DNA of 34,996 nucleotides from an uncultured Mediterraneibacter sp. (GTDB lineage: Bacteria; Bacillota; Clostridia; Lachnospirales; Lachnospiraceae). The first letter of the stretch is position 1. The number at the start of each line of letters is the position of its first letter. The notes under the pieces were generated by a model. It searched no databases. It worked only from the letters and a program-made list of their open reading frames with translations, and was not told the DNA's origin. Position numbers and translations under genes: made by a program. Location: assembly GCA_944376695.1 (NCBI GenBank), contig CALWDM010000028.1, positions 1 through 34,996 of the forward strand, written 5' to 3'. This document shows, piece after piece, positions 4,318 through 18,228 of the stretch.

Positions 4318-5262
4318 TTAAAGATGGATCCTTGTCCCGGTCTTCCCCTGTATCCCGTCTTTTGCTTTTTCGAGCAGGGTGATCAGCGCCTGTCGCCCGG
4401 GCCCGGACTCGGCAAATTCTACGGCAGCCTGTACCTTCGGCAGCATGGATCCCGCCGCAAAGTGGCCTTCCTCAATGTATTGTTTTGCCTCGTCTACCGT
4501 AATATCCCCGAGCCATTTTTCATTGGGTTTCCCGTAATTGACGGCTGCTTTTTCCACGGCGGTCAGGATGATGAGAAAGTCTGCATCCAGCTCTTTTGCG
4601 AGCAGGCAGCTTGCGAAGTCTTTGTCAATGACCGCGCTGGCGCCTTTTAAGTGATTGCCCTGACGGGTGACCGGGATGCCGCCGCCACCGCAGGCGATGA
4701 CAACGTCTCCGGAGTCTACCATATTTCGGATCGTCCCGATCTCTACGATCTCCCGGGGCTTTGGGGAAGCGACCACGCGGCGGTAGCCGCGCCCTGCGTC
4801 TTCCTTCATGATATAGTCATATTTTTCCGCCATCACATCTGCCTGCTCCTTTGTCATAAAGCGGCCGATAGGTTTGGAGGGATGCGCAAATGCCGGATCC
4901 TCCGGATCTACCCGGACCTGTGTGATCATGGTCGCTACGGGGATATCCGTGATCCCCCGGTTTAAAAGCTCTTCCCTGAGCGCGTTCTGCAGGTCATAGC
5001 CGATGTACGCCTGACTCATGGCAACGCAGACGGACAGCGGTGTGTTCGGCTGCTGGGGATCCTCGTGGGTGAGTGCGATCATGGCATTGTTTACCATACC
5101 CACCTGAGGCCCGTTCCCGTGCGCGACAACGACTTCGCAGCCCTCCTCGATCAGGTCCACGATAGCCCGGGAAGTGATCTTCACGGCTTTCATCTGTTCG
5201 GGAAGCGTATTGCCGAGGGCGTTCCCTCCCAGGGCAATGACGATACGTTTCTTTCTTTCCAT
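4318..5262 (-). CDS. arcC: Carbamate kinase
   Basis: Catalyses carbamoyl phosphate + ADP to carbamate + ATP; the product breaks down to CO2 and ammonia. The 314-residue length and the motifs ALGGNAL (residues 10-16) and HGNGPQVG near residue 49, plus a CGGGGIPV segment, are characteristic. It is the last gene of the minus-strand group. E. coli has a carbamate kinase homologue (YqeA) in its equivalent cluster. Next to YgeW it offers the ATP-yielding end of the pathway. The gene starts 15 bp downstream of the ridA stop. Confidence 0.96.
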   Translation of the reverse strand: MERKKRIVIALGGNALGNTLPEQMKAVKITSRAIVDLIEEGCEVVVAHGNGPQVGMVNNAMIALTHEDPQQPNTPLSVCVAMSQAYIGYDLQNALREELLNRGITDIPVATMITQVRVDPEDPAFAHPSKPIGRFMTKEQADVMAEKYDYIMKEDAGRGYRRVVASPKPREIVEIGTIRNMVDSGDVVIACGGGGIPVTRQGNHLKGASAVIDKDFASCLLAKELDADFLIILTAVEKAAVNYGKPNEKWLGDITVDEAKQYIEEGHFAAGSMLPKVQAAVEFAESGPGRQALITLLEKAKDGIQGKTGTRIHL

Positions 5263-5785: not shown

Positions 5786-6979
5786 TTATTTAAAGATCCT
5801 CGGCGTGCCTTTCTCTTCCAGCTTTTTGAGAATGTCAGCCGGATCGGCGAATTTTGCAAGGAAGATCATGGCCGCGATGATGTACGGCTTGTAGCTTGCT
5901 TCTTTGTACAGAGGGTCTCTGTAACGGTCAAATACGCTTGCGTCAACTTCGCCTTCCCCGCAGCTTACGCCTGTGATGTCAGCGGGCAGGCAGTGCATGT
6001 AGAGCGCTTTGCCGTCTTTTGTCGTCTTCATCAGTTCCTCTGTGCAGGCCCAGTCTTTGTGCTGCGCGTTCTGTGCCAGCAGTTCCTGCTCCAGGGCGTT
6101 GATGCCGTCGAAGTCGCCGTTTCCGTAAAGCTCGGTGCGTTTCTCCATCGCCGCGAACGGAGCCCAGCTCTTCGGGTAAACGATGTCAGCGTCTTTAAAC
6201 GCCTCTGCCATGCTGTTCGTCTTTGTGAATGTACCGCCGGATTTCTTTGCGTTTTCCGCAGCCACAGCCTCGACCTCCGGGAAGACTTCGTAGCCTTCCG
6301 GATGCGCCAGCACAACGTCCATTCCGAAACGGGTCATCAGGCCGATGATGCCCTGGGGAACGGAGAGCGGCTTGCCGTAGGAAGGAGAATAAGCCCATGT
6401 CATCGCAATCTTTTTGCCCTTTAAGTTCTCTACGCCGCCGAACTCGTGGATGATGTGCAGCATATCAGCCATTGCCTGCGTCGGGTGGTCGATGTCGCAC
6501 TGCAGGTTCACAAGCGTCGGCTTCTGCTCAAGGATGCCATCTTTGTTGCCCTGGGTTACAGCGTCAACGACTTCGTGCATATATTTATTTCCCTTGCCGA
6601 TGTACATATCGTCGCGGATCCCGATGACGTCTGCCATAAAGGAGATCATGTTCGCGGTCTCGCGTACCGTCTCACCGTGTGCAACCTGTGATTTGCCCTC
6701 GTCCAGATCCTGCACTTCAAGCCCTAACAGGTTGCAGGCAGAAGCGAAAGAGAAGCGGGTGCGCGTGGAGTTGTCGCGGAAAAGAGAAATTCCCAGACCG
6801 CTCTCAAATACCTTTGTGGAAATGTTATTCTCTCGCATAAAGCGCAGGGCGTCAGCGACTGTGAAAACCGCCTCCAGTTCGTCGTCCGTCTTCTCCCATG
6901 TCAGGAAAAAGTCCCCGTTGTACATATCCTTAAAGTTCAGGGCATTCAGCTTGTCAATGTAATCCTGTAAAGTTTTCAT
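5786..6979 (-). CDS. ygeW: YgeW, knotted carbamoyltransferase-like protein of purine/ureide catabolism
   Basis: 397 residues, very similar in length and sequence to E. coli YgeW, a member of the aspartate/ornithine carbamoyltransferase fold. The carbamoyl-phosphate site (DNSTRTRF), HPTQAMADML and HCLPADITG motifs are all visible. The expected role is phosphorolytic release of a carbamoyl group from a ureido intermediate, feeding carbamate kinase; the exact substrate is inferred. An AAGGAGG site precedes the ATG. The gene is separated from upstream ygeY by 363 bp, the largest gap in the minus-strand group. Confidence 0.94.
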   Translation of the reverse strand: MKTLQDYIDKLNALNFKDMYNGDFFLTWEKTDDELEAVFTVADALRFMRENNISTKVFESGLGISLFRDNSTRTRFSFASACNLLGLEVQDLDEGKSQVAHGETVRETANMISFMADVIGIRDDMYIGKGNKYMHEVVDAVTQGNKDGILEQKPTLVNLQCDIDHPTQAMADMLHIIHEFGGVENLKGKKIAMTWAYSPSYGKPLSVPQGIIGLMTRFGMDVVLAHPEGYEVFPEVEAVAAENAKKSGGTFTKTNSMAEAFKDADIVYPKSWAPFAAMEKRTELYGNGDFDGINALEQELLAQNAQHKDWACTEELMKTTKDGKALYMHCLPADITGVSCGEGEVDASVFDRYRDPLYKEASYKPYIIAAMIFLAKFADPADILKKLEEKGTPRIFK

Positions 6980-7342: not shown

Positions 7343-8653
7343 CTACTCGCAGTAAATCCCGGGCAGTGCCGCGTACACAGCCGCGCATGTGACGAGGTCC
7401 TGTTTCCATGTTTTTTCGTTCGGCGCGTGTGCCTGCGCTTCCGCGCCCGGTCCGAATCCGATGCAGGGGATGCCGTTTCTTCCCATGATGGATACGCCGT
7501 TTGTGGAGAAGGTCCACTTGTCAGTCAGCGGGCGGCTCTGGCGCATTTCCAGTGTCTCCTCCGCTCCGATCCTCTTGTCCCCGTAGAGAGAGGTGTATGC
7601 TTTTTCAAGAGCCTTTGTCACCTTGTGGTCCTTCGGGATCGCCCATGTCGGGAAGTAGCACTCGATCTCATAGACGCATCCAGTGTAGGACGGGCGGTCA
7701 TAGTTGTACATGGAAACCACAACGTCATCGCCGTATTTCTTCACGCTCGGGAGCGCGCGGATCTCATCCAGGCAGCTCTCCCATGTCTCGCCGAATGTCA
7801 TGCGGCGGTCAAGGGATACTGCGCAGGAATCAGCGACCGCGCATCGGCTTGGTGATGTGTAGAAGATCTGTGATACTGTGACAGTACCGCGCCCGAGGAA
7901 TCTTGCCTCCTCCCAGTCCGGGTTGTATTTCGGGTTGAGCATTTTTACGAGCCCTTTGATCTCGGTCCCGTCTGCGTCGTCGTTTTCGTTGAGCGCGCGC
8001 ACATCCTGAAGAATGTCGGCCATCTTGTAGATCGCGTTGTCCCCGCGCTCCGGGGCGGAGCCGTGGCAGGACACGCCTTTGACGTCGATGCGGATCTCCA
8101 TGCGCCCTCTCTGTCCGCGGTAGATACCGCCGTCTGTTGGCTCTGTGGACACGACGAATTCCGGGCGGATCTTATCTTCGTTTATGATGTACTGCCAGCA
8201 CAGGCCGTCGCAGTCTTCCTCCTGGACGGTTCCCACGACCATGATCTTACATCCCTCGGGGATCAGATCCATGTCCTTCATGATGCGTGCGCCGTACACA
8301 GCGGATACAATACCGCCGCACTGGTCGGACACGCCGCGCCCGCCGATCTCAGTCTCGTTCTCATATCCTTCGTATGGATCAAAGGTCCAGTTAGCGATAT
8401 TGCCGATGCCTACGGTGTCGATATGCGCATCGTATGCGAGGATCCTGTCGCCTGCGCCCATATAGCCGATCACATTCCCCTGGGGATCGATCACAACCTC
8501 ATCGAAGTCCAGCTTTTTCATCTCTGCGGCGATCGTGTCGATGTGCGCTTTTTCGTCGCAGCTCTCGCCCGGGTTTCTGACGATGGCGCGCAGGAAGGCG
8601 GTCATGTCCGCCTGATAACTCTGCGCTGCTTCTTTGATCTTGTTAAAATCCAT
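7343..8653 (-). CDS. ygeY: YgeY, M20-family metallopeptidase/amidohydrolase-like enzyme
   Basis: About 436 residues, of the M20 (ArgE/DapE) di-metal hydrolase family and the YgeY branch. Metal-ligand regions visible are [26 protein letters not shown], a STEPTDG segment and HAPNE near the C-terminus. The start at 8653 is chosen because AAAGGAG lies about 8 nt upstream; thirteen extra upstream codons are possible but unsupported. It is thought to hydrolyse a C-N bond in an open-chain ureido or carbamoyl intermediate (family context; reaction inferred). It lies 45 bp downstream of ygeX, the same neighbour as in E. coli. Confidence 0.92.
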
Positions 8654-8698
8654 AGTTTTCTCTCTCCTTTTCCGATTTGAAAATATTCTCAAAGTTTT

Positions 8699-9904
8699 TT
8701 ATCTGTCATTTCCGCCCCAGACGATGGATTCATATCTCTCCGGGTCCGTGTCGCCTTCTGTGGAGAAGAGCAGGACTCTGGAGTTTTTATCCAGACCCAG
8801 GTGATCCCTGAGCGGTTCATACTCGTCCATTGTCATGATGCACGCAAGCGTTCCAAAGGGAGCGGCTCCGGATTCGCCGGAAGTGACCGGCTGGTCGCCT
8901 TTGACCGGGGCTGCCAGCATACGCATTCCCAACGCTGCCACCCAGTCAGGGGATGCGATAAATGTATCGGCGTGGTTTTTCAGGATATCCCAGGAGATCG
9001 TGTTGGGCTCTCCGCAGGCAAGCCCTGCCATGATGGTGACCATGTCGCCGTCCACGATGCGGATATTACCGTCTCCCGCGCAGGCTCCTTTGTACAGACA
9101 GGCCGCGGCCGCTGCCTCTACGACTACGACCTTCGGCGGGTTCGCGGGATACCGGTTTGCGAAATATCCCTGGACAGCGCCTGCAAGAGAACCGACGCCT
9201 GCCTGTATGAATACATGGGTCGGACGTTCGCATCCGTAATCGTGGAGCTGTTCGTCCGCTTCCATTGCCATAGTGCCGTACCCCTGCATGATCCAGGACG
9301 GGATCTCTTCGTAGCCGTCCCATGCGGTATCCTGCACCATGACGCCGTTCTCTGTCTTTTCTGCCATGGCGTTCGCCATGCGTACGCATTCATCGTAATT
9401 GTAATCCTCGATCGTTGCCTGAGCCCCTTCGGCAAGAATGTTGTTCAGCCTTGTCTGCGTGGTGCCCTTCGGCATGAGGACAACCGCCTTCTGTCCCAGC
9501 TTGTTTGCCGCCCAGGCGACCCCGCGCCCGTGGTTGCCGTCTGTCGCGGTGAAAAAGGTTGCCTGGCCGAATTCCTTTCTGAGCTCTTCAGAAGTGAGCA
9601 CATTATATGGAAGCTCCGACACGTCTTTCCCGGTCTGTTTTGCTATGTACCGCGCCATGGCAAAAGAACCGCCCAGCACTTTGAAGGCATTGAGCCCGAA
9701 ACGGTAGGACTCATCCTTGACGTAAACTTCCTTCAGGCCGAGACGGGATGCTATCCGGTCCAGTTTCGCCAGGGGAGTGACGCTGTACTGGGGAAAACTC
9801 TCGTGAAAGGCGCGCGCCTTCCTGACCTCGTCCAGCCCCATGAGGGGGAGATTGGAATCTTCGGTTTTCGGCATTTTGTTGACTGCCCATTTGATCGTAT
9901 CCAT
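8699..9904 (-). CDS. ygeX: 2,3-Diaminopropionate ammonia-lyase (YgeX/DpaL)
   Basis: A PLP enzyme converting 2,3-diaminopropionate to pyruvate and two ammonia. The 401-residue length fits the family. The PLP lysine is expected at K75 in RFGLNAFKVLGG; the TATDGNHGRGVAWAA loop and a glycine-rich QAGVGSLAGA segment are also present. An AAGGAGG site precedes the ATG. Its product feeds central metabolism and its 2-aminoacrylate intermediate is the expected substrate of RidA downstream. It is first of the catabolic genes after the regulator, with a 36-bp gap. Confidence 0.96.
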   Translation of the reverse strand: MDTIKWAVNKMPKTEDSNLPLMGLDEVRKARAFHESFPQYSVTPLAKLDRIASRLGLKEVYVKDESYRFGLNAFKVLGGSFAMARYIAKQTGKDVSELPYNVLTSEELRKEFGQATFFTATDGNHGRGVAWAANKLGQKAVVLMPKGTTQTRLNNILAEGAQATIEDYNYDECVRMANAMAEKTENGVMVQDTAWDGYEEIPSWIMQGYGTMAMEADEQLHDYGCERPTHVFIQAGVGSLAGAVQGYFANRYPANPPKVVVVEAAAAACLYKGACAGDGNIRIVDGDMVTIMAGLACGEPNTISWDILKNHADTFIASPDWVAALGMRMLAAPVKGDQPVTSGESGAAPFGTLACIMTMDEYEPLRDHLGLDKNSRVLLFSTEGDTDPERYESIVWGGNDR

Positions 9905-9940: not shown

Positions 9941-10588
9941 TCATCCTTTGTCCATGTAGCTGTACAATGTAAATTTTGATATTCCCAGCAGGGAGGATAC
10001 TTTGTCGCCGGATTTGGTGATGAGGAATGCCCCGGCGTTGTTCAGGTACTGCACCACAGCCGTTTTGTCATCCTTATTCATAAGCGCCACCGGCTTCCCT
10101 ACTTTCGCGATGGCCTGCTCGATGAGCAGATCCAAAAGCTCGGTCACATTATGGGTGATCGTCTGGGGCGCGTCTGTCGGGCCGTTTTCTGCGCTGCTCT
10201 CAGGCTCTGTCTGCACCAGGCTGTGGACCGCGTTTTCTGCGGCGAGCAGGGCGGTGATGTCGTAATTGATGGAAAAGATATAAGCCACCTTTCCATTGTC
10301 ATCCCGGATGTAGAGCGTGCTGGATTTTAAGATCCGCCCGTCCTCTGTCCTGGTGAGATAGGCGAGCCTGTCTTTGACCTTCGCGGGATCTGAGCGGAGC
10401 GTCTCCAGTACGATCCCTGACGGCCCGTCGCCGGCGTGACGGTTGGATACGTGCCCGTTCTCAATATATACGATGGATTTATCCAGGTTTTTCTTTGTCA
10501 GATCGTGGATGACCACTTCGCAGGAACTGCCGAACTGGGCTGTGAGCCCGTGCGCGAGCTGTTTTAAAAATCCGAGTTTCTGAACCAT
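9941..10588 (-). CDS. YheO-like PAS-domain transcriptional regulator
   Basis: A regulator with an N-terminal YheO-type PAS-like sensor (CEVVIHDL, DKSIVYIENG, GRILKSSTLYIRDDNGKVAYIFSINYDIT) and a C-terminal helix-turn-helix (KTAVVQYLNNAGAFLITKSGDKVSSLLGISKFTLYSYM), the usual order of the family. Two starts are possible. The ATG at 10588 has GGCAGGTG about 5 nt upstream; the ATG at 10609 adds seven residues but has no clear site. It is transcribed away from ssnA and is the obvious candidate to bind the dyad at 10691-10729. A purine or pathway-intermediate ligand is an inference from location. Confidence 0.88.
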   Translation of the reverse strand: MVQKLGFLKQLAHGLTAQFGSSCEVVIHDLTKKNLDKSIVYIENGHVSNRHAGDGPSGIVLETLRSDPAKVKDRLAYLTRTEDGRILKSSTLYIRDDNGKVAYIFSINYDITALLAAENAVHSLVQTEPESSAENGPTDAPQTITHNVTELLDLLIEQAIAKVGKPVALMNKDDKTAVVQYLNNAGAFLITKSGDKVSSLLGISKFTLYSYMDKG

Positions 10589-10656
10589 GTTTTCACCTGC
10601 CTTTTTCATTGTGTGAACCAGCGGGAAAATGTGTTTTGATGTGTGTTTCTAAACCC

Positions 10657-10684
10657 ATCATAGCATAAAAAAAATGAGAGTCAA
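10657..10684 (-). promoter_or_regulatory. Sigma-A promoter for the regulator-ygeXYW direction
   Basis: Reading the minus strand, TTGACT (10684-10679), a 16-nt spacer and TATGAT (10662-10657) give a near-consensus promoter about 60-70 nt upstream of the regulator start. Confidence 0.75.
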
Positions 10685-10690
10685 TAGTTT

Positions 10691-10729
10691 TTCTAAAAAA
10701 TTTTTAGGTAACCTAAAAAATAATTAGAA
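10691..10729. promoter_or_regulatory. 39-bp dyad operator centred at 10710 between divergent promoters
   Basis: The inner 19 bp (10701-10719, TTTTTAGGTAACCTAAAAA) is a perfect inverted repeat around one central base. The outer TTCTAA/TTAGAA pair shares the same centre; 16 of 19 positions per arm match. The -35 boxes of the two divergent promoters each end 26 bp from the centre. This places the dyad near -60/-61 of both predicted transcription starts, the classic class I activator position. The binding protein is probably the adjacent YheO-like regulator (inference). Confidence 0.75.
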
Positions 10730-10735
10730 TTTTTG

Positions 10736-10764
10736 TTGCAATTATATATATTTGATGGTATTCT
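10736..10764 (+). promoter_or_regulatory. Sigma-A promoter for ssnA and the plus-strand catabolic genes
   Basis: TTGCAA (10736-10741), a 17-nt AT-rich spacer and TATTCT (10759-10764). Predicted start near 10771, leaving a leader of about 90 nt before ssnA. The imperfect boxes fit a promoter that needs an activator. Confidence 0.6.
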
Positions 10765-10859
10765 ATAAGAGGAAAAGCATATTTATATGCGAAGTGCACA
10801 GAAATTTGGGAGAGCGTGCCTTTGAAGATGTGTGTAAAATAAATAAAAAAGGAGAAGAA

Positions 10860-12197
10860 ATGATGCTGGTTTTAGGTAATGGAAGAGTGGTTACAAGAGA
10901 CGCCTCATGTCCGTTCATCGAAGACGGCGCGGTCGCGGTCGAGGGCACGAAGATCCGCCGGGTCGGGAAGACGCAGGATATCAGAACGGCATTTCCTGAC
11001 GCGGAGTATATCGATGCAGAAGGCGGTCTGATCATGCCTGCTTTTATCAACGTACATGAGCATATCTACAGTTCGTTTGCAAGAGGGCTTTCCATAAAGG
11101 GATACGATCCCAAGGGATTCCTTGATATCCTGGACGGAATGTGGTGGACCATCGACCGGAATCTCACGCTTCACGATACATACTTAAGCGCCATGGCGAC
11201 TTATGTGGACTGTATCAAAAACGGGGTGACCACCGTCTTTGACCATCACGCAAGTTTCGGCTCGGTCGGCGGCTCCCTGTTTGAGATCGAAAAGGCGGCG
11301 AAGGAGACGGGAGTCAGATCCTGCCTCTGCTACGAGATTTCAGACCGGGACGGCAGGGACAAGGCGCGGGCGTCCGTGATGGAGAACGCGGAGTTCCTCC
11401 GGCACGTCCTCAAAGATGAGAGCGGGATGATAGCGGGCATGATGGGTATGCACGCGCAGTTTACGATCTCGGACGAGACCTTTGAACTGGCGGCCGCGAA
11501 CAAGCCCGATGAAGTGGGATACCACATCCATGTGGCAGAGGGGATCGAGGATCTCCACCACTGTCTGAAGCATTACGGGAAGCGGATCGCGGACCGTCTG
11601 ATGGATCACGGGATCCTGGGAGAGAAGACGCTGCTCGGGCACTGCATCTACATCAATCCCCACGAGATGGACCTGATCAAAGAGACAGACACCATGGTCG
11701 TACATAACCCGGAGTCCAATATGGGCAATGCGTGCGGCTGCCCGCCCACTATGGAGCTGGTGCACAGAGGGATCCTGACCGGGCTTGGGACAGACGGATA
11801 TACCCATGACATGATGGAGTCCTTTAAGGCGGCGAACGTACTGCACAAACACCATCTCTGCGATCCCAGCGCGGCATGGTCGGAGGTCCCGCAGATGCTC
11901 TTTGAGAATAATGCAAAGATCGCGGGCAGGTACTTTGAGCCGGAACTGGGCGTGCTGAAAGAGGGCGCGGCAGGAGACGTGATCATCGTGGCGTACGATC
12001 CGCTGACCCCGATAAATGAGAGCAATATCAACGGTCATCTCGTGTTCGGGGTGACTGGGCATGACGTAGTGACGACCGTCGCCAACGGCAGGGTCCTGAT
12101 GAAAGACCGGAGACTGACGCAGATCGATGAGGCAAAGGTCATGGCAGACTGCCGTCAGGCAGCGGCGGAGCTGGCGTCCAGGATCAACAGCAGATAA
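10860..12197 (+). CDS. ssnA: SsnA-type amidohydrolase (putative aminohydrolase of purine catabolism)
   Basis: Metal-dependent amidohydrolase of the cytosine/guanine deaminase-like superfamily, about 445 residues, close in length to E. coli SsnA (442). Metal-ligand motifs are NVHEHIYS (HxH), HIHVAEG, GHCIYIN and GTDGYTHDMME, in the expected order. The start is placed at 10860 (or the adjacent ATG at 10863) because GGAG lies 5-8 nt upstream. A longer frame beginning at 10752 would start upstream of the predicted transcription start and adds a tail with no family match. It likely deaminates or opens a ring intermediate; the substrate is inferred from the cluster. Confidence 0.93.
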   Translation: MMLVLGNGRVVTRDASCPFIEDGAVAVEGTKIRRVGKTQDIRTAFPDAEYIDAEGGLIMPAFINVHEHIYSSFARGLSIKGYDPKGFLDILDGMWWTIDRNLTLHDTYLSAMATYVDCIKNGVTTVFDHHASFGSVGGSLFEIEKAAKETGVRSCLCYEISDRDGRDKARASVMENAEFLRHVLKDESGMIAGMMGMHAQFTISDETFELAAANKPDEVGYHIHVAEGIEDLHHCLKHYGKRIADRLMDHGILGEKTLLGHCIYINPHEMDLIKETDTMVVHNPESNMGNACGCPPTMELVHRGILTGLGTDGYTHDMMESFKAANVLHKHHLCDPSAAWSEVPQMLFENNAKIAGRYFEPELGVLKEGAAGDVIIVAYDPLTPINESNINGHLVFGVTGHDVVTTVANGRVLMKDRRLTQIDEAKVMADCRQAAAELASRINSR

Positions 12198-12323: not shown

Positions 12324-13757
12324 ATGAGTGATACAAAACTGAAACGTGATAATTCACAGTTATTTAAATGGGACGGGAAACCGTCGATGGGACAGGTGCT
12401 CCCCCTGGCGGCGCAGCATGTGCTGGCCGCGGTCGTGGGATGCGTGACGCCGGCGATCCTGGTCGCCAACGCGGCGAACAATGCGGGAGGCAATGTGGAT
12501 ATGGGGCTGCTGATCCAGGTGTCCCTTGTGTTTGCGGCGCTCTCCACACTTTTACAGCTGTATGCGCAGAAGATCAAACTGGGAAGCGGCCTGCCGGTCA
12601 TCATCGGCGTCAGCTTTGCATATGTGCCGACCATGACAGCCATCGCCGCCCAGGCGAAAGACGTCAATACCATATTCGGCGCTATGATCATCGGCGGCGT
12701 TGTGGCGGTCCTTGTGGGGCTGTTTATCCGTCAGATCAGGAAGGTATTCCCGCCCCTTGTAATCGGGACTGTGATCCTGGCCATCGGGCTTTCGCTTTAC
12801 AGCACCGCAGTCAACTACATGGCAGGAAACTCTTCCAATACATACGAACTGATCGTGGAGCAGCAGGGGAAAACAGCGGCTCTCGTATACGGCTCCTGGC
12901 AGAACTGGCTGGTGGCGTTCATCACGCTGGGTATTGTAGTCCTTCTGAACCATTACGGCAAAGGGCTCTTTAAGCTGGCGTCGATCCTGATCGGTCTCCT
13001 CTGCGGGTATGTGGTGGCGCTCTGCTTCGGGATGGTAGACTTCTCCGCCCTCTCCTCCGCGGGATGGTTTCAGGTGCCGATGCCGCTGGCATTCGGGCTG
13101 AAATTCGACATCTCGGCGATTCTGCCTCTGGCGATCCTGTTCCTTGTCAACTCGATCCAGGCCATGGGCGATTTCTCCGCCACGACCACAGGCGGCATGG
13201 ACCGTCTCCCCACGGACGATGAGCTGAACGGCGGTATCATCGGGTACGGAGTCAGCAATATGGCGGGCGCGCTGTTCGGATGCCCGCCGACGGCGACATA
13301 CAGCCAGAATGTTGGTATCGTAGGCTCTACAAGAGTTGTGGCAAGAAGAGTCTTTGCCGTGGCGGCGGCGATCCTTCTCGTAGCCGGGCTGATCCCGAAG
13401 TTTTCCGCCCTGCTGCGGACGATCCCGCAGTGCGTGCTCGGCGGCGCGGTTGCCTCCGTATTCGCGTCCATCGCCATGACCGGCATCAAGCTGCTCGTCA
13501 CAGAGAAGCTGACTTACCGCAATACGACAGTGGCAGGGCTTTCCATTGCCATCGGCATGGGCGTATCCTTAAGCGACGGATGCTTAAACCAGATGACACA
13601 GAGCATCCACAGCGCTCTGAACATGAGCATGAGTCTGGAGAGCTTCCAGTCGATTATCAACAACACCTTTGCCTCCTCTCCGGTAGTGCTGGCCACCATC
13701 TTCGCTGTGCTCCTGAACCTGATCCTGCCAAAGGACAAACCGGACGCAGCGGCATAA
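12324..13757 (+). CDS. NCS2-family nucleobase (purine/uric acid-type) permease
   Basis: Inner-membrane nucleobase:cation symporter-2 of 477 residues with 12-14 hydrophobic segments. The family signature is seen as TYSQNVGIVGSTR (QN retained) and a QAMGDFSATT helix. Two acidic residues important in E. coli XanQ appear replaced (Glu272 position by Gln in IQAMGD, Asp304 position by Tyr in IIGYGVSN) while the Asp276 position is kept; this is my manual alignment. Placement between ssnA and ygfK makes it the likely uptake system for the purine degraded here. The ribosome-binding site is weak (GGGTG). Confidence 0.9.
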   Translation: MSDTKLKRDNSQLFKWDGKPSMGQVLPLAAQHVLAAVVGCVTPAILVANAANNAGGNVDMGLLIQVSLVFAALSTLLQLYAQKIKLGSGLPVIIGVSFAYVPTMTAIAAQAKDVNTIFGAMIIGGVVAVLVGLFIRQIRKVFPPLVIGTVILAIGLSLYSTAVNYMAGNSSNTYELIVEQQGKTAALVYGSWQNWLVAFITLGIVVLLNHYGKGLFKLASILIGLLCGYVVALCFGMVDFSALSSAGWFQVPMPLAFGLKFDISAILPLAILFLVNSIQAMGDFSATTTGGMDRLPTDDELNGGIIGYGVSNMAGALFGCPPTATYSQNVGIVGSTRVVARRVFAVAAAILLVAGLIPKFSALLRTIPQCVLGGAVASVFASIAMTGIKLLVTEKLTYRNTTVAGLSIAIGMGVSLSDGCLNQMTQSIHSALNMSMSLESFQSIINNTFASSPVVLATIFAVLLNLILPKDKPDAAA

Positions 13758-13785: not shown

Positions 13786-16782
13786 ATGAGTGATATGATG
13801 AGACCAATGTCATTTGCCCGGCTCCTTGACTGGACACTGACAGAACATAAAAAATACGGGACTGTCTTCGGAGCCCGCCACGCGTACCGCGCAGATGAGA
13901 AATACGCAAGGTCGATCTTCGGGCGGAGGCTGGAGACGCCCATCGGTCCCGCGGCGGGACCCCACACCCAGCTTGCCCAGAATCTCGTGGCGGCATATTA
14001 CACGGGCAGCCGTTTCTTTGAGCTGAAGACCGTACAGGTCATGGACGGGGCGGAGCTGTCCGCCTGCGTGAACAAGCCGTGCATCAAGGCGGACGACGAG
14101 TGCTATAACTGCGAGTGGTCCACCGAGCTGTATGTGCCTCAGGCAATGGAAGAGTACATCAAGGCATGGTTCCTTTGCAAGATCGCGGCAAAGGAATTCG
14201 GACTCGGGAGTATGGACGGATTCCAGTTTAACATCAGCGTGGGCTACGATCTGGCAGGCATCCAGTCCGAAAAGATCGACAACTTCTTAAATACGATGAA
14301 GCACGCTCAGGATTCGGAGATATTTAAATCCTGCCGGGCATATCTTCTGGAGCATGCGGATCTGTTTGAGCGTGTGACAAAAGAGGATATCGAAAGTATT
14401 TCCGGCGGCATCTGCAATTCCGTGACCATCTCCACGCTCCACGGATGTCCGCCCCAGGAGATCGAGCGGATCGCCATGTACCTGATCACGGAGAAAGGAT
14501 TCCACACGTTTATCAAGTGCAATCCGACCCTTCTGGGATATGAGTTCGCGAGAAAGACCATGAACGAAATGGGATACGACTATGTGGCGTTCGGAGATTT
14601 CCACTTTAAGGACGACCTGCAGTGGGAGGACGCTGTCCCCATGCTGGACCGGCTGAGGAAAGTCTGTCAGGAGAGGGAGCTGGAGTTCGGCGTAAAGATC
14701 ACGAACACCTTCCCCGTAGATGTGAAGCAGAACGAGCTCCCAAGCCAGGAAATGTATATGTCAGGGAAGTCCCTGTATCCGCTTTCCATCTCTCTTGCGG
14801 CAAAGCTGGCCAAGGAATTTGACGGAAAACTGCGGATCTCCTACTCAGGCGGCGCGGATTACCACAATATCAAAGGAATCGTGGACGCCGGGATCTGGCC
14901 GGTCACCGTGGCTACCACACTGCTCAAACCCGGCGGATATGACCGGACCGCACAGATGGCGGCGCTCCTGGAGAAAGAGAACGATGTGTTTACAGGGGTC
15001 AGCGCGGAAAAGACGGCGCAGCTGGCGGCGGACGCGAAGGTAAGCCCCTATCATGTAAAGGCGGTGAAGCCGCTGCCGTCGAGAAAGATGAAGAAACAGG
15101 TGCCGCTCCTGGACTGCTTTACCGCTCCGTGCAAAGAGGGATGCCCTATCCACCAGGATATCCCGGCGTACCTTCAGCTTGTAAAGGCAGGAAAATACGA
15201 AGAGGCGCTGACAGTGATCACGGAGAAGAACCCGCTCCCGTTCATCACGGGAACCATCTGCGCCCATCCGTGTATGGGAAAATGTACCCGCAATTTCTAT
15301 GAGGATTCTGTACATATCCGTGAGATGAAAAAAATCGCGGCTGAGAACGGCTATGACGCTCTGATCGGAAAAATCACAGCTCCGGCTGTGACAAGACCCG
15401 GAAAGGCAGCGGTAGTCGGAGGAGGGCCAGCAGGAATGGCGGCTGCTTATTTCCTGAGAAGAGCGGGAATGGAAGTGACGCTGTTTGAGAAGAGCGGCGC
15501 CCTGGGCGGCGTGGCGCGTCATGTGATCCCGGGCTTCCGTATCCCGGAGAGCGCCATTGACAAGGACGCGGCGCTCCTTGAGAAGCTGGGCGTGAACATT
15601 TATCTGAATTCAGAGATCACAGAGATTAAGATGCTGAAAAATGCAGGGTACACGGCAGTGATTCTTGCAGTGGGTGCTTCTGAGCCGGGCAGGCTGAAGC
15701 TGGAAAAAGGCGATCCGGTCAATGCGCTTGAGTTCCTGGCCGACTTTAAGGCAAAAGACGGGAACCTGGATATCGGGAAAAATGTGGTAGTCATCGGCGG
15801 AGGGAACACTGCCATGGATACCGCAAGGGCAGCGAAACGCACGAAAGGCGTGGAGCATGTGTACCTTGTATACAGAAGGACCAAAAGGTACATGCCGGCG
15901 GACGAGGAAGAACTGGAGATGGCGGTGGAAGACGGCGTAGAGTTCATGGAACTGCTTGCCCCGGTGAAAGCAGAAAACGGCAGGCTCCTCTGCAAAGTGA
16001 TGAAGCTGGGCGATTATGACGCGTCCGGCCGGAGAGGCGTCGTTGAGACAGAAGAAGAAAAAGAGATCCCGGCGGACACGGTCATCGCTGCAGTGGGAGA
16101 GAAAGTTCCCACAGAGTTCTATGAGGCGAACGGCATCCATGTAAATGATAGAGGCCGCGCCCTTGTGAATGAAGAGACGTGCGAGACGAATCTTGAAGGC
16201 GTCTATGCAGTGGGCGACGGGCTCGGCGGCCCGGCCACTGTCGTGGAAGGGATCCGGGACGGGTGCAAAGCGGCGGAGGCAGTCATCGGAGAAAGCCTGG
16301 CAGAGGAGATTGTTTCACAGACAGACGAAGAAACCGTGTATAATAGAAGAGGAAACCTTGCCGACGCTGTCGAGGACAGAGAGGAGAGCGGACGGTGCCT
16401 CGGCTGTGAGGGTATCTGCGAGAACTGCGTGGAAGTATGCCCCAACCGGGCGAACATCTCCATCCGTGTCCCGGGCATGGAGGAGCACCAGATCATCCAC
16501 GTGGACTACATGTGCAATGAGTGTGGAAACTGTAAGAGCTTCTGTCCGTACGACAGCGCTCCGTACCTGGATAAATTTACCCTGTTCGCTGATGAAAGGG
16601 ACATGGAAGACAGCAAAAACCAGGGCTTCACGGTGCTTGACCGGGAAGCGGTGAAGTGTAAGGTAAGGTTCTTCGGAGATACTTATATGTGGACAAAAGG
16701 GGAAGAGACGAGGATCCCGGAAGGGCTGCAGAGACTGATGGAGGCAGTGTGCAGGGATTACGGATATCTCCTGAGAGACTAG
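13786..16782 (+). CDS. ygfK: YgfK, iron-sulfur flavoprotein oxidoreductase (DHOD-like + GltD-like + ferredoxin)
   Basis: 998-residue multidomain reductase, cytoplasmic. Residues 1 to about 420 form a dihydroorotate dehydrogenase-like barrel. An N-terminal GltD-type cysteine module follows (CKEGCPIH near 449; CAHPCMGKC near 500), then a FAD Rossmann motif (VGGGPAGMAAAY near 545) and a second NAD(P)H motif (VVIGGGNTAMD near 666). The C-terminus has two cysteine clusters (CLGCEGICENCVEVC near 873; CNECGNCKSFC near 912) for FeS centres. E. coli YgfK is annotated as a putative selenate reductase subunit, but cluster membership suggests reduction of a purine-derived intermediate (inference). An AGGAGG site precedes the ATG. 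Confidence 0.94.
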   Translation: MSDMMRPMSFARLLDWTLTEHKKYGTVFGARHAYRADEKYARSIFGRRLETPIGPAAGPHTQLAQNLVAAYYTGSRFFELKTVQVMDGAELSACVNKPCIKADDECYNCEWSTELYVPQAMEEYIKAWFLCKIAAKEFGLGSMDGFQFNISVGYDLAGIQSEKIDNFLNTMKHAQDSEIFKSCRAYLLEHADLFERVTKEDIESISGGICNSVTISTLHGCPPQEIERIAMYLITEKGFHTFIKCNPTLLGYEFARKTMNEMGYDYVAFGDFHFKDDLQWEDAVPMLDRLRKVCQERELEFGVKITNTFPVDVKQNELPSQEMYMSGKSLYPLSISLAAKLAKEFDGKLRISYSGGADYHNIKGIVDAGIWPVTVATTLLKPGGYDRTAQMAALLEKENDVFTGVSAEKTAQLAADAKVSPYHVKAVKPLPSRKMKKQVPLLDCFTAPCKEGCPIHQDIPAYLQLVKAGKYEEALTVITEKNPLPFITGTICAHPCMGKCTRNFYEDSVHIREMKKIAAENGYDALIGKITAPAVTRPGKAAVVGGGPAGMAAAYFLRRAGMEVTLFEKSGALGGVARHVIPGFRIPESAIDKDAALLEKLGVNIYLNSEITEIKMLKNAGYTAVILAVGASEPGRLKLEKGDPVNALEFLADFKAKDGNLDIGKNVVVIGGGNTAMDTARAAKRTKGVEHVYLVYRRTKRYMPADEEELEMAVEDGVEFMELLAPVKAENGRLLCKVMKLGDYDASGRRGVVETEEEKEIPADTVIAAVGEKVPTEFYEANGIHVNDRGRALVNEETCETNLEGVYAVGDGLGGPATVVEGIRDGCKAAEAVIGESLAEEIVSQTDEETVYNRRGNLADAVEDREESGRCLGCEGICENCVEVCPNRANISIRVPGMEEHQIIHVDYMCNECGNCKSFCPYDSAPYLDKFTLFADERDMEDSKNQGFTVLDREAVKCKVRFFGDTYMWTKGEETRIPEGLQRLMEAVCRDYGYLLRD

Positions 16783-16860
16783 AAACAAATGCCGGTCTGG
16801 CGGCGCCATCTTTCCCGGGGCGCAGCCGGGCCGGGAACTTACAGAAAGAAGGGGTCAGTG

Positions 16861-18228
16861 ATGAAACGGTTATTCAAGGGCGGTACAGTTGTCAGCGGAG
16901 ATGGGATGAGAAAGGTGGATCTTCTTGTAAAAGGGGAAAAGATCCTCGCAGTGGGCGAGAATCTGGAGTTCAGTGACGCAGAGGTCGTGGATGTGAGCGG
17001 GAAGCTCCTTTTCCCGGGATTTATCGACGCCCATACGCATATGGCGCTGGAAGTGAGCAATACAGTGACCGCAGATAAGTTTGACACAGGGACAAAGGCG
17101 GAGCTGGCGGGGGGAACGACCTGCATCATTGACTATGCCACCCAGTATCCGGGGGAGAGCCTGCGGCAGGCGCTTAACAACTGGCACGAAAAAGCGGACG
17201 GGGAGTCTTCCTGCGATTATGCCTTCCATCTGGCGCTCACGGACTGGAATGAAGAGGTCAGCCGGGAGCTGGAAGAGATCGTGGCAAAGGAGACCATGTC
17301 CTTTAAGCTGTATATGACTTATGACACTATGGTGGACGATGAGACGATGTATGAGATCCTGTCCCGGTTAAAGGAACTGGGCGGGATCGCGGGAGTCCAC
17401 TGTGAGAATGACGGGATCATCAGGGCAAGGATGAAAGAAGTGGAGAAGAAAAAAGGGGACAGAAAGGACGTCTCCGATTATCCGTGGACCCGCCCCAAAG
17501 AGGCGGAGGCAGAAGCGGTCTCCCGGCTGTTAAAGATCGCGAAATGCGTGGATACCCCTGTCATCGTGGTGCACTTAAGTACAGCCGCAGGGTACCGGGA
17601 GATCTTAAAAGCCAGGGAAGCGGGGCAGACCGTCTATGTGGAGACATGTCCTCAGTATCTTGTGATGGATGATGAGAAATATTCCCTTCCCGCGGAAGAG
17701 GCAAGGCGCTATATGATCGCGCCTCCGCTGAGGAAGAAAAAGAACCAGGAGACGCTCTGGCAGGCGCTGAAGGAAGGCAGGATCCAGACCATCGCCACAG
17801 ATCACTGCAGCTTTACAAAAGAGCAGAAGGCGGCAGGGGCAGAGGATTTTGCGAAGACACCCTGCGGAATGCCCGGGGCGGAGGAGCGCCCGGCGCTGAT
17901 CTGGCAGTTCGGGGTCAATGAGAAGAGGATCACACCGGAGCAGATGTGCATCTGCCTGTCGGAAAATCCGGCGAAGCTCTACCATCTCTATCCGTGGAAA
18001 GGCGCGCTCATCCCTGGAGCGGACGCGGATATCGTCGTGTGGGACCCGGATACAGAGTGGACGCTGAGCGCGGAAGACCAGCAGTCAGCCTGTGATTACT
18101 GCCCCATGGAAGGGACAGCGATCCGGGGCAGGGCAGAGCAGGTATATCTGAGAGGAACGCTGGCGGCGGAGAACGGGAAGATCCTTGCGGAAAAGACCGG
18201 AACATATGTCCGCCACGGTGCAGAATAA
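16861..18228 (+). CDS. hyuA: HyuA, dihydropyrimidinase/D-hydantoinase-family amidohydrolase
   Basis: 455-residue cyclic amidohydrolase opening hydantoin- or dihydropyrimidine-type rings. The di-metal site is visible: HxH in GFIDAHTHM (about 52-60), the carboxylated Lys in SFKLYMTYD (about 148), His in GVHCEND (about 180), His in VVHLSTAAG (about 237) and Asp in ATDHCSF (about 312). The start at 16861 is chosen from AAGGGG 8-10 nt upstream and family length; the frame is open upstream to 16789 without support. Located between ygfK and yqeC as in related clusters. Confidence 0.94.
   Translation: MKRLFKGGTVVSGDGMRKVDLLVKGEKILAVGENLEFSDAEVVDVSGKLLFPGFIDAHTHMALEVSNTVTADKFDTGTKAELAGGTTCIIDYATQYPGESLRQALNNWHEKADGESSCDYAFHLALTDWNEEVSRELEEIVAKETMSFKLYMTYDTMVDDETMYEILSRLKELGGIAGVHCENDGIIRARMKEVEKKKGDRKDVSDYPWTRPKEAEAEAVSRLLKIAKCVDTPVIVVHLSTAAGYREILKAREAGQTVYVETCPQYLVMDDEKYSLPAEEARRYMIAPPLRKKKNQETLWQALKEGRIQTIATDHCSFTKEQKAAGAEDFAKTPCGMPGAEERPALIWQFGVNEKRITPEQMCICLSENPAKLYHLYPWKGALIPGADADIVVWDPDTEWTLSAEDQQSACDYCPMEGTAIRGRAEQVYLRGTLAAENGKILAEKTGTYVRHGAE

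Follow-up and report, generated by a model that had tools for sequence, protein, structure and literature searches.

The intergenic region between two divergent purine-degradation operons holds a conserved element made up of two tandem 15-bp palindromes (CTAAA-W5-TTTAG, 20 bp from start to start), and comparison with related sequences indicates that this feature is genuine and is probably the shared tandem operator of the regulator encoded beside it. As a transcription-factor operator that sits within a divergent promoter, it belongs to a familiar kind. The reading that we favor, and hold to be somewhat probable, is that two dimers of the adjacent PAS_6-HTH_22 regulator bind this tandem operator and likely activate both operons in response to a purine-catabolism signal.

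The window, by which we mean the whole 34,996-nt stretch of DNA that was analyzed, carries a purine/uric-acid degradation cluster arranged as two divergent gene runs. The plus-strand run is headed by ssnA (putative aminohydrolase, 10860..12197, with its ATG at 10860) and continues with a xanthine/nucleobase permease of the NCS2 family (12324..13757), ygfK (13786..16782), hydA (dihydropyrimidinase/hydantoinase-type, 16789..18228), yqeC, yqeB, and a Se-dependent xanthine dehydrogenase. The minus-strand run is headed by the gene for the PAS_6 + HTH_22 (YheO-like) regulator (9941..10609), the likely binder of the element, followed by ygeX (diaminopropionate ammonia-lyase, 8699..9904), ygeY (YgeY family hydrolase, 7343..8692), ygeW (knotted carbamoyltransferase, 5786..6979), and arcC (carbamate kinase, 4318..5262). 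The element lies in the 250-bp intergenic region between the regulator start at 10609 and the ssnA start at 10860. A search of positions 10560-10900 against Rfam gave no match at threshold and a single match below it (E 0.22), and PHROGs gave zero matches.

The regulator-proximal unit, CTAAAAAATTTTTAG, occupies positions 10693..10707 and the ssnA-proximal unit, CTAAAAAATAATTAG, positions 10713..10727, with a 5-bp linker (10708..10712) between them; when scored with a matrix built from relatives and the window, these were the best and second-best 15-mers in the window, respectively. The sequence-only reading had described the same stretch, here taken as the putative common operator region, as a 39-bp dyad (10691..10729) centered on 10710, and this symmetry was confirmed in that the inner 19 bp (10701-10719) form a perfect inverted repeat and the dyad pairs at 16/19 positions (84%). 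In dinucleotide-shuffled versions of the 250 bp between the two genes, 0/500 reached a 39-bp dyad of equal quality and 0/500 the tandem pattern with 1 mismatch, while a perfect 9-bp arm, allowing gaps of at most 9 and taken alone, was just mildly unusual because 4/300 shuffles reached it. Tandem copies of a palindrome automatically build a larger dyad, and this accounts for the 39-bp symmetry. Across 45 single-pair regions, information content was 1.6-2.0 bits per position in the arms, 1.5-1.6 in the cores, and 1.0 in the linker, the least conserved part; A/T content was 99-100% in the cores and 61% in the linker, and the C and G at the unit ends were fixed at 98-100%. The GTNAC linker that perfects the inner repeat was found in 7 of these 45 regions. 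Since the linker is variable and the arms are conserved, the center at 10710 is the spacer between two sites. The possibility that TTTAGGTAACCTAAA is a DtxR/MntR-like site was considered but dropped, because its central GGTNACC is not conserved.

Predicted promoters flank the element on both sides. For the regulator operon, a consensus scan placed a -35 box (TTGACT, 10679..10684, minus strand) 16 bp from a -10 box (TATGAT, 10657..10662, minus strand) that is preceded by TG and is also supported by relatives. For the ssnA operon, the predicted -35 box (TTGCAA, 10736..10741, plus strand; TTGCAT in most relatives) is separated by 17 bp from a -10 box (TATTCT, 10759..10764, plus strand) predicted from conservation in relatives; this plus-strand promoter was unreported by the consensus scan and fits the consensus at 8/12 positions. 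In 52/53 regions the best regulator-side promoter starts 8 bp off the unit, 51 of them having a 16-bp spacer, and TTGAC(T/A) together with TATGAT occurs in 49/53. The ssnA side has TTGCAT or TTGCAA precisely 8 bp from its unit in 48/53 regions, with TATTCT 17 bp beyond the -35 box in 46/53. A best-score search on that side mostly picked a different pair, TTTATA-17-TATAxx, 5 bp further on, which is less conserved and variable in its final -10 bases; the ssnA promoter is therefore a prediction from conservation.

The mirror geometry proposed in the sequence-only reading is exact to the base, the upstream edges of both -35 boxes lying 26 bp from 10710, and all of its coordinates were correct when the sequence was re-read. 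With transcription starts assumed ~7 bp past the -10 boxes (near 10650 on the minus strand and 10771 on the plus strand) and with each palindrome 8 bp from a -35 box, the units center near -50 and -70 for both promoters: the regulator-proximal unit at about -50 for the regulator and -71 for ssnA, and the ssnA-proximal unit at about -51 for ssnA and -70 for the regulator. The further proposal of one binding site at -60/-61 found no support, as that point falls in the variable linker with the conserved units to either side of it. Two other features were observed in this region. The stretch 10686-10707, read on the minus strand, is a full match to the UP-element consensus (-59 to -38 with 14 specified positions) and is kept across the genus. 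An imperfect palindrome, TRTGC-GANNT-GCACA, at 10786-10800, just 3' of the predicted ssnA start, is conserved, and in most regions of the genus its distance from the operator is nearly constant; it may be a hairpin of the 5' leader or else a second operator.

The tandem pattern, at up to 3 mismatches, was found in 53 of 58 Mediterraneibacter genomes compared with 0 for the reversed control, and in this genus scan it occurred about once per genome, at the regulator/ssnA locus. Conservation of the dyad in relatives had been set beforehand as one point on which the sequence-only reading could fail, and it withstood that check; its claim of a conserved, probably protein-binding element common to two divergent operons was likewise supported. 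When loci were chosen by the regulator, 53 of 54 with orthologs at least 66% identical had tandem CTAAA-N5-TTTAG upstream at up to 3 mismatches; in genome G001, the one exception, the units are unchanged but the linker is 4 bp long. Genomes G006, G028, G035, and G052 are without the element, a detected regulator, or a complete ssnA, and the regulator was detected in 60 of 99 genomes searched, including 53 of the 58 genus genomes. Because element, regulator, and pathway co-vary within the genus, their co-occurrence cannot single out the binder. Tandem matches at G050:C96 and G014:C249 (3 mismatches) were rejected as chance occurrences: they fall where a long reading frame ends, and the stretches taken around them yielded neither a regulator nor an ssnA match. 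In the window's own genome, two further places lie within 1 mismatch of a single unit, and the single-unit scan gave 4 places versus 6 for the control.

A weakened element was also found in other Lachnospiraceae and in a few Flavonifractor-type genomes. Among 71 regulator loci at most 76% identical, 51 had an element reached by no more than 1/100 local shuffles and 20 had no significant element; the loci with an element include Hungatella, Lacrimispora, Anaerocolumna, Faecalicatena, Flavonifractor, and Pseudoflavonifractor. Across 48 of these distant elements, the inner half-sites showed at most 1 mismatch in 40 and 39 cases; for the outer half-sites the corresponding counts were 32 on the regulator side and 25 on the ssnA side. 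The regulator-side outer half-site was exact in 25/48 versus 18 for the ssnA-side inner half-site. The outer half-sites drift, and the one on the ssnA side is often TACAA; inspection by eye for covariation between the recognition helix and TACAA-type outer half-sites revealed no clean pattern. In the order-wide scan of 392 genomes, the real pattern occurred in 16 genomes and the control pattern in 17, so weight was placed on positions alone, 9 of the 16 being at a regulator or ssnA promoter.

Eight regions carry an insert between the two promoters, and each promoter there retains its own pair of units at 8 bp. The regulator-side pair is 8 bp from the -35 box in 8/8 of these regions, and the ssnA-side pair is 8 bp from the conserved -35 box, with one mismatch in 3/8 pairs; in genome G024, one pair lies beside ssnA and another beside the regulator, on different contigs. 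That the separated promoters each keep a pair argues that a whole pair is needed per promoter and that a single pair can serve both promoters where they share it. The eight insert regions occupy three places in the regulator tree, the deeper forks of which are weakly supported. Loci L036 (G044, one pair) and L037 (G002, two pairs), from close relatives, encode regulators that are identical over the aligned part, and the single pair of G044 is flanked on the left as the first pair of G002 is and on the right as its second is, as if the one-pair state had arisen by a deletion between the two pairs.

We also asked whether the element follows the regulator to other loci, counting an element as significant at no more than 1/200 local shuffles for both paralogs and unlinked ssnA promoters. 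Ten paralogous regulators, 54-62% identical and located elsewhere in genomes of the same genus, had a significant tandem element in 7/10 cases, the element not being significant at L071 (3/200), L072 (10/200), and L073 (137/200). One unit at up to 2 mismatches was present in 9/10 paralog loci and both units in L072 only, the partner units at the other loci being degenerate. Five paralog neighbors were annotated: three dihydropyrimidinases, one NCS1 permease followed by a dihydropyrimidinase, and one, beside L073, with no family assigned. At L072, L074, L078, and similar loci, a second PAS_6-HTH_22 regulator stands divergent to dihydropyrimidinase or NCS1 permease genes. Loci of this type, mostly with the tandem element, likely represent a pyrimidine-degradation regulon. 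Among more distant family members (30-39% identical), the element was found in 0/6.

Of the 392 order-level genomes, 40 have ssnA; in 14 of these the regulator lies elsewhere or on another contig, and in 9 none was detected. The tandem element was present at 7/14 ssnA promoters away from the regulator (G423, G429, G427, G388, G434, G401, and G255) versus 1/9 in genomes without a detected regulator, the one being a weak but passing element in G345, an 83% complete genome. Unlinked ssnA promoters that did not pass were those of G390 (5/200), G221 (10/200), G121, G213, G082, G095, and G309, and promoters without a detected regulator that did not pass included G269 (5/200) and G109 (8/200). Within the window's own family alone, the counts were 6/7 and 0/1, respectively. 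The clearest trans case is G423:C17 (L288, L299, L310), in which the element lies between divergent ssnA and ygeX genes and the regulator gene is 36 kb off, beside a hydA-like gene, with a second tandem element there. The association with paralogs and in trans modestly favors the adjacent regulator as the binder, in keeping with the earlier suggestion that the YheO-like (PAS_6-HTH_22) protein is the likely binder.

The regulator consists of an N-terminal PAS_6 domain (PF08348, E 2.3e-36) and a C-terminal HTH_22 domain (PF13309, E 3.3e-20), the latter being the sole Pfam match above cut-off for the DNA-binding domain. The PAS domain of the AlphaFold2 model matches LOV and other PAS structures. 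The HTH domain was predicted as a four-helix fold (pLDDT 93, AlphaFold2), for which a Foldseek search gave no match at E <= 0.001, with Fis absent among the matches listed, also in a second look by VIA over Foldseek's own list; a sequence search of the PDB gave a best E of 0.93. Because the neighbors of this regulator family are of two kinds, purine and pyrimidine, our guess is that the ligand would be a ureido intermediate common to both.

Taken together, the element may function as a two-way operator as follows. Two 15-bp palindromes (CTAAA-W5-TTTAG) separated by a 5-bp spacer give four half-sites that repeat at 10-bp intervals along one face of the DNA, to which the neighboring PAS_6-HTH_22 regulator would bind as two side-by-side dimers. 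Since the outer edges of the palindromes are 8 bp from each -35 box, the same complex would stand at approximately -43 to -77 of both promoters. The PAS domain would sense a purine-catabolism signal, and the bound complex would then activate together the ssnA-permease-ygfK-hydA and regulator-ygeX-ygeY-ygeW-arcC sets, the latter with autoregulation. Activation is the sign we favor, given the weakness of the ssnA promoter and a position of the units upstream of both -35 boxes that overlaps neither; the near-consensus regulator promoter may need no activator. This last feature suits a different sign of control, in which the same operator and binder serve mainly for repression or autorepression by blocking polymerase or its alpha C-terminal domain until induction: the regulator promoter (TTGACT-16-TATGAT, with TG before the -10 box) could fire unaided, and deletion of the YheO-like gene cj1387c in C. 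jejuni raised the level of the adjacent Cj1388 protein, according to the available part of PMC4519771. Repression is nevertheless unlikely in our estimation, given that both core promoters are left clear by the units, which lie upstream of each -35 box, and that the predicted ssnA promoter has the weakness typical of activator-dependent promoters.

Two accounts dispense with the paired sites or with a dedicated protein. Back-to-back UP elements, A/T-rich units that dock the alpha C-terminal domain of RNA polymerase with no dedicated regulator, are favored by the regulator-side stretch next to the -35 box, which fits the UP consensus at 13-14/14 positions in 51/53 regions, but the ssnA side fits at just 9-12/14 in all 53. 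This account also leaves unexplained the fixed C/G unit ends (98-100%), the 20-bp tandem spacing, and the keeping of two units at each separated promoter, the last of which argues that single back-to-back UP elements are insufficient alone. As a full explanation we regard it as quite improbable, while a UP contribution to the regulator promoter, combined with an operator role, is quite possible. A single dimer on the central TTTAG-N5-CTAAA (center 10710), at the class I position of -60/-61 for both promoters, draws on the perfect inner repeat in the window itself and on the better preservation of the inner half-sites among the distant elements (at most 1 mismatch in 40 and 39 of 48, against 32 and 25 for the outer ones). 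The central 5 bp, however, are the least conserved and contain G/C, the repeat is perfect in 7/45 regions, the regulator-side outer half-site is as strict within the genus as the inner ones (98-100%), and in distant elements it is more often exact than the ssnA-side inner one (25/48 versus 18); we accordingly give the single dimer little credence. Least probable of all, in our view, is an unlinked binder such as a global nitrogen or carbon regulator. The weak element at ssnA in G345, which has no detected regulator, and the half of unlinked ssnA promoters without an element are compatible with such a protein, yet the element occurs about once per genus genome, at the regulator/ssnA locus, and accompanies the regulator paralogs to pyrimidine loci. 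Binding of the tandem operator by two dimers of the adjacent regulator is thus the reading that we retain.

Several known systems resemble this arrangement in part. The P. aeruginosa regulators DguR and DauR, the latter a D-arginine regulator, are presumably members of the same YheO-like PAS_6-HTH_22 family, and such regulators resemble the one described here in having the same two domains and a gene that usually adjoins the genes affected. Divergent promoters that share a single activator site form a general class, with which the window shares one operator region between two catabolic operons and from which it differs in its exact 8-bp mirror spacing and in the separate pair per promoter of some lineages. 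UP elements sit upstream of strong sigma-70 promoters; the regulator-side position and A/T pattern of the window fit the consensus, whereas its paired palindromes, fixed G/C ends, and poor ssnA-side fit set it apart. Fis sites have a 15-bp core, rich in A/T, with G/C and C/G pairs at its ends (available part of PMC4784862). The units in the window are likewise 15-mers with C and G at the ends and an all-A/T center, but they are strict in sequence and tandem spacing, whereas Fis sites are degenerate. The available part of PMC4519771 indicates that C. jejuni Cj1387c affects its adjacent gene, apparently lowering its expression, and reports no operator. Compared with Cj1387c and DguR, the window is distinguished by a conserved tandem site and by its purine pathway, with pyrimidine pathways beside the paralogs.

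The sequence-only reading knew of no described operator for this regulator in this pathway, and our literature search, which covered few subscription journals, likewise returned none. Neither the operator, nor its link to the regulator, nor the one-pair/two-pair variation was found in the literature searched, which contained no description of the control of the purine pathway in gut Clostridia; in the available main text of PMC12507026, the words "regulator" and "operon" occur 0 times.

Anaerobic breakdown of uric acid and purines by gut bacteria is relevant to urate in the host, and a defined operator, a candidate regulator, and strains with one or two pairs make its control directly testable. 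The tandem motif can, moreover, be searched for in related regulons, pyrimidine loci included. A bolder reading, which we put forward only tentatively, is that the element constitutes a single ~39-bp platform of four in-phase half-sites whose mirror placement would let one complex, two dimers of a purine-sensing PAS_6 regulator, drive both operons equally, and that it would be the founding operator code for a group of regulators serving purine and pyrimidine degradation in gut Clostridia. If this is true, the natural one-pair and two-pair versions of the element would amount to a built-in experiment.
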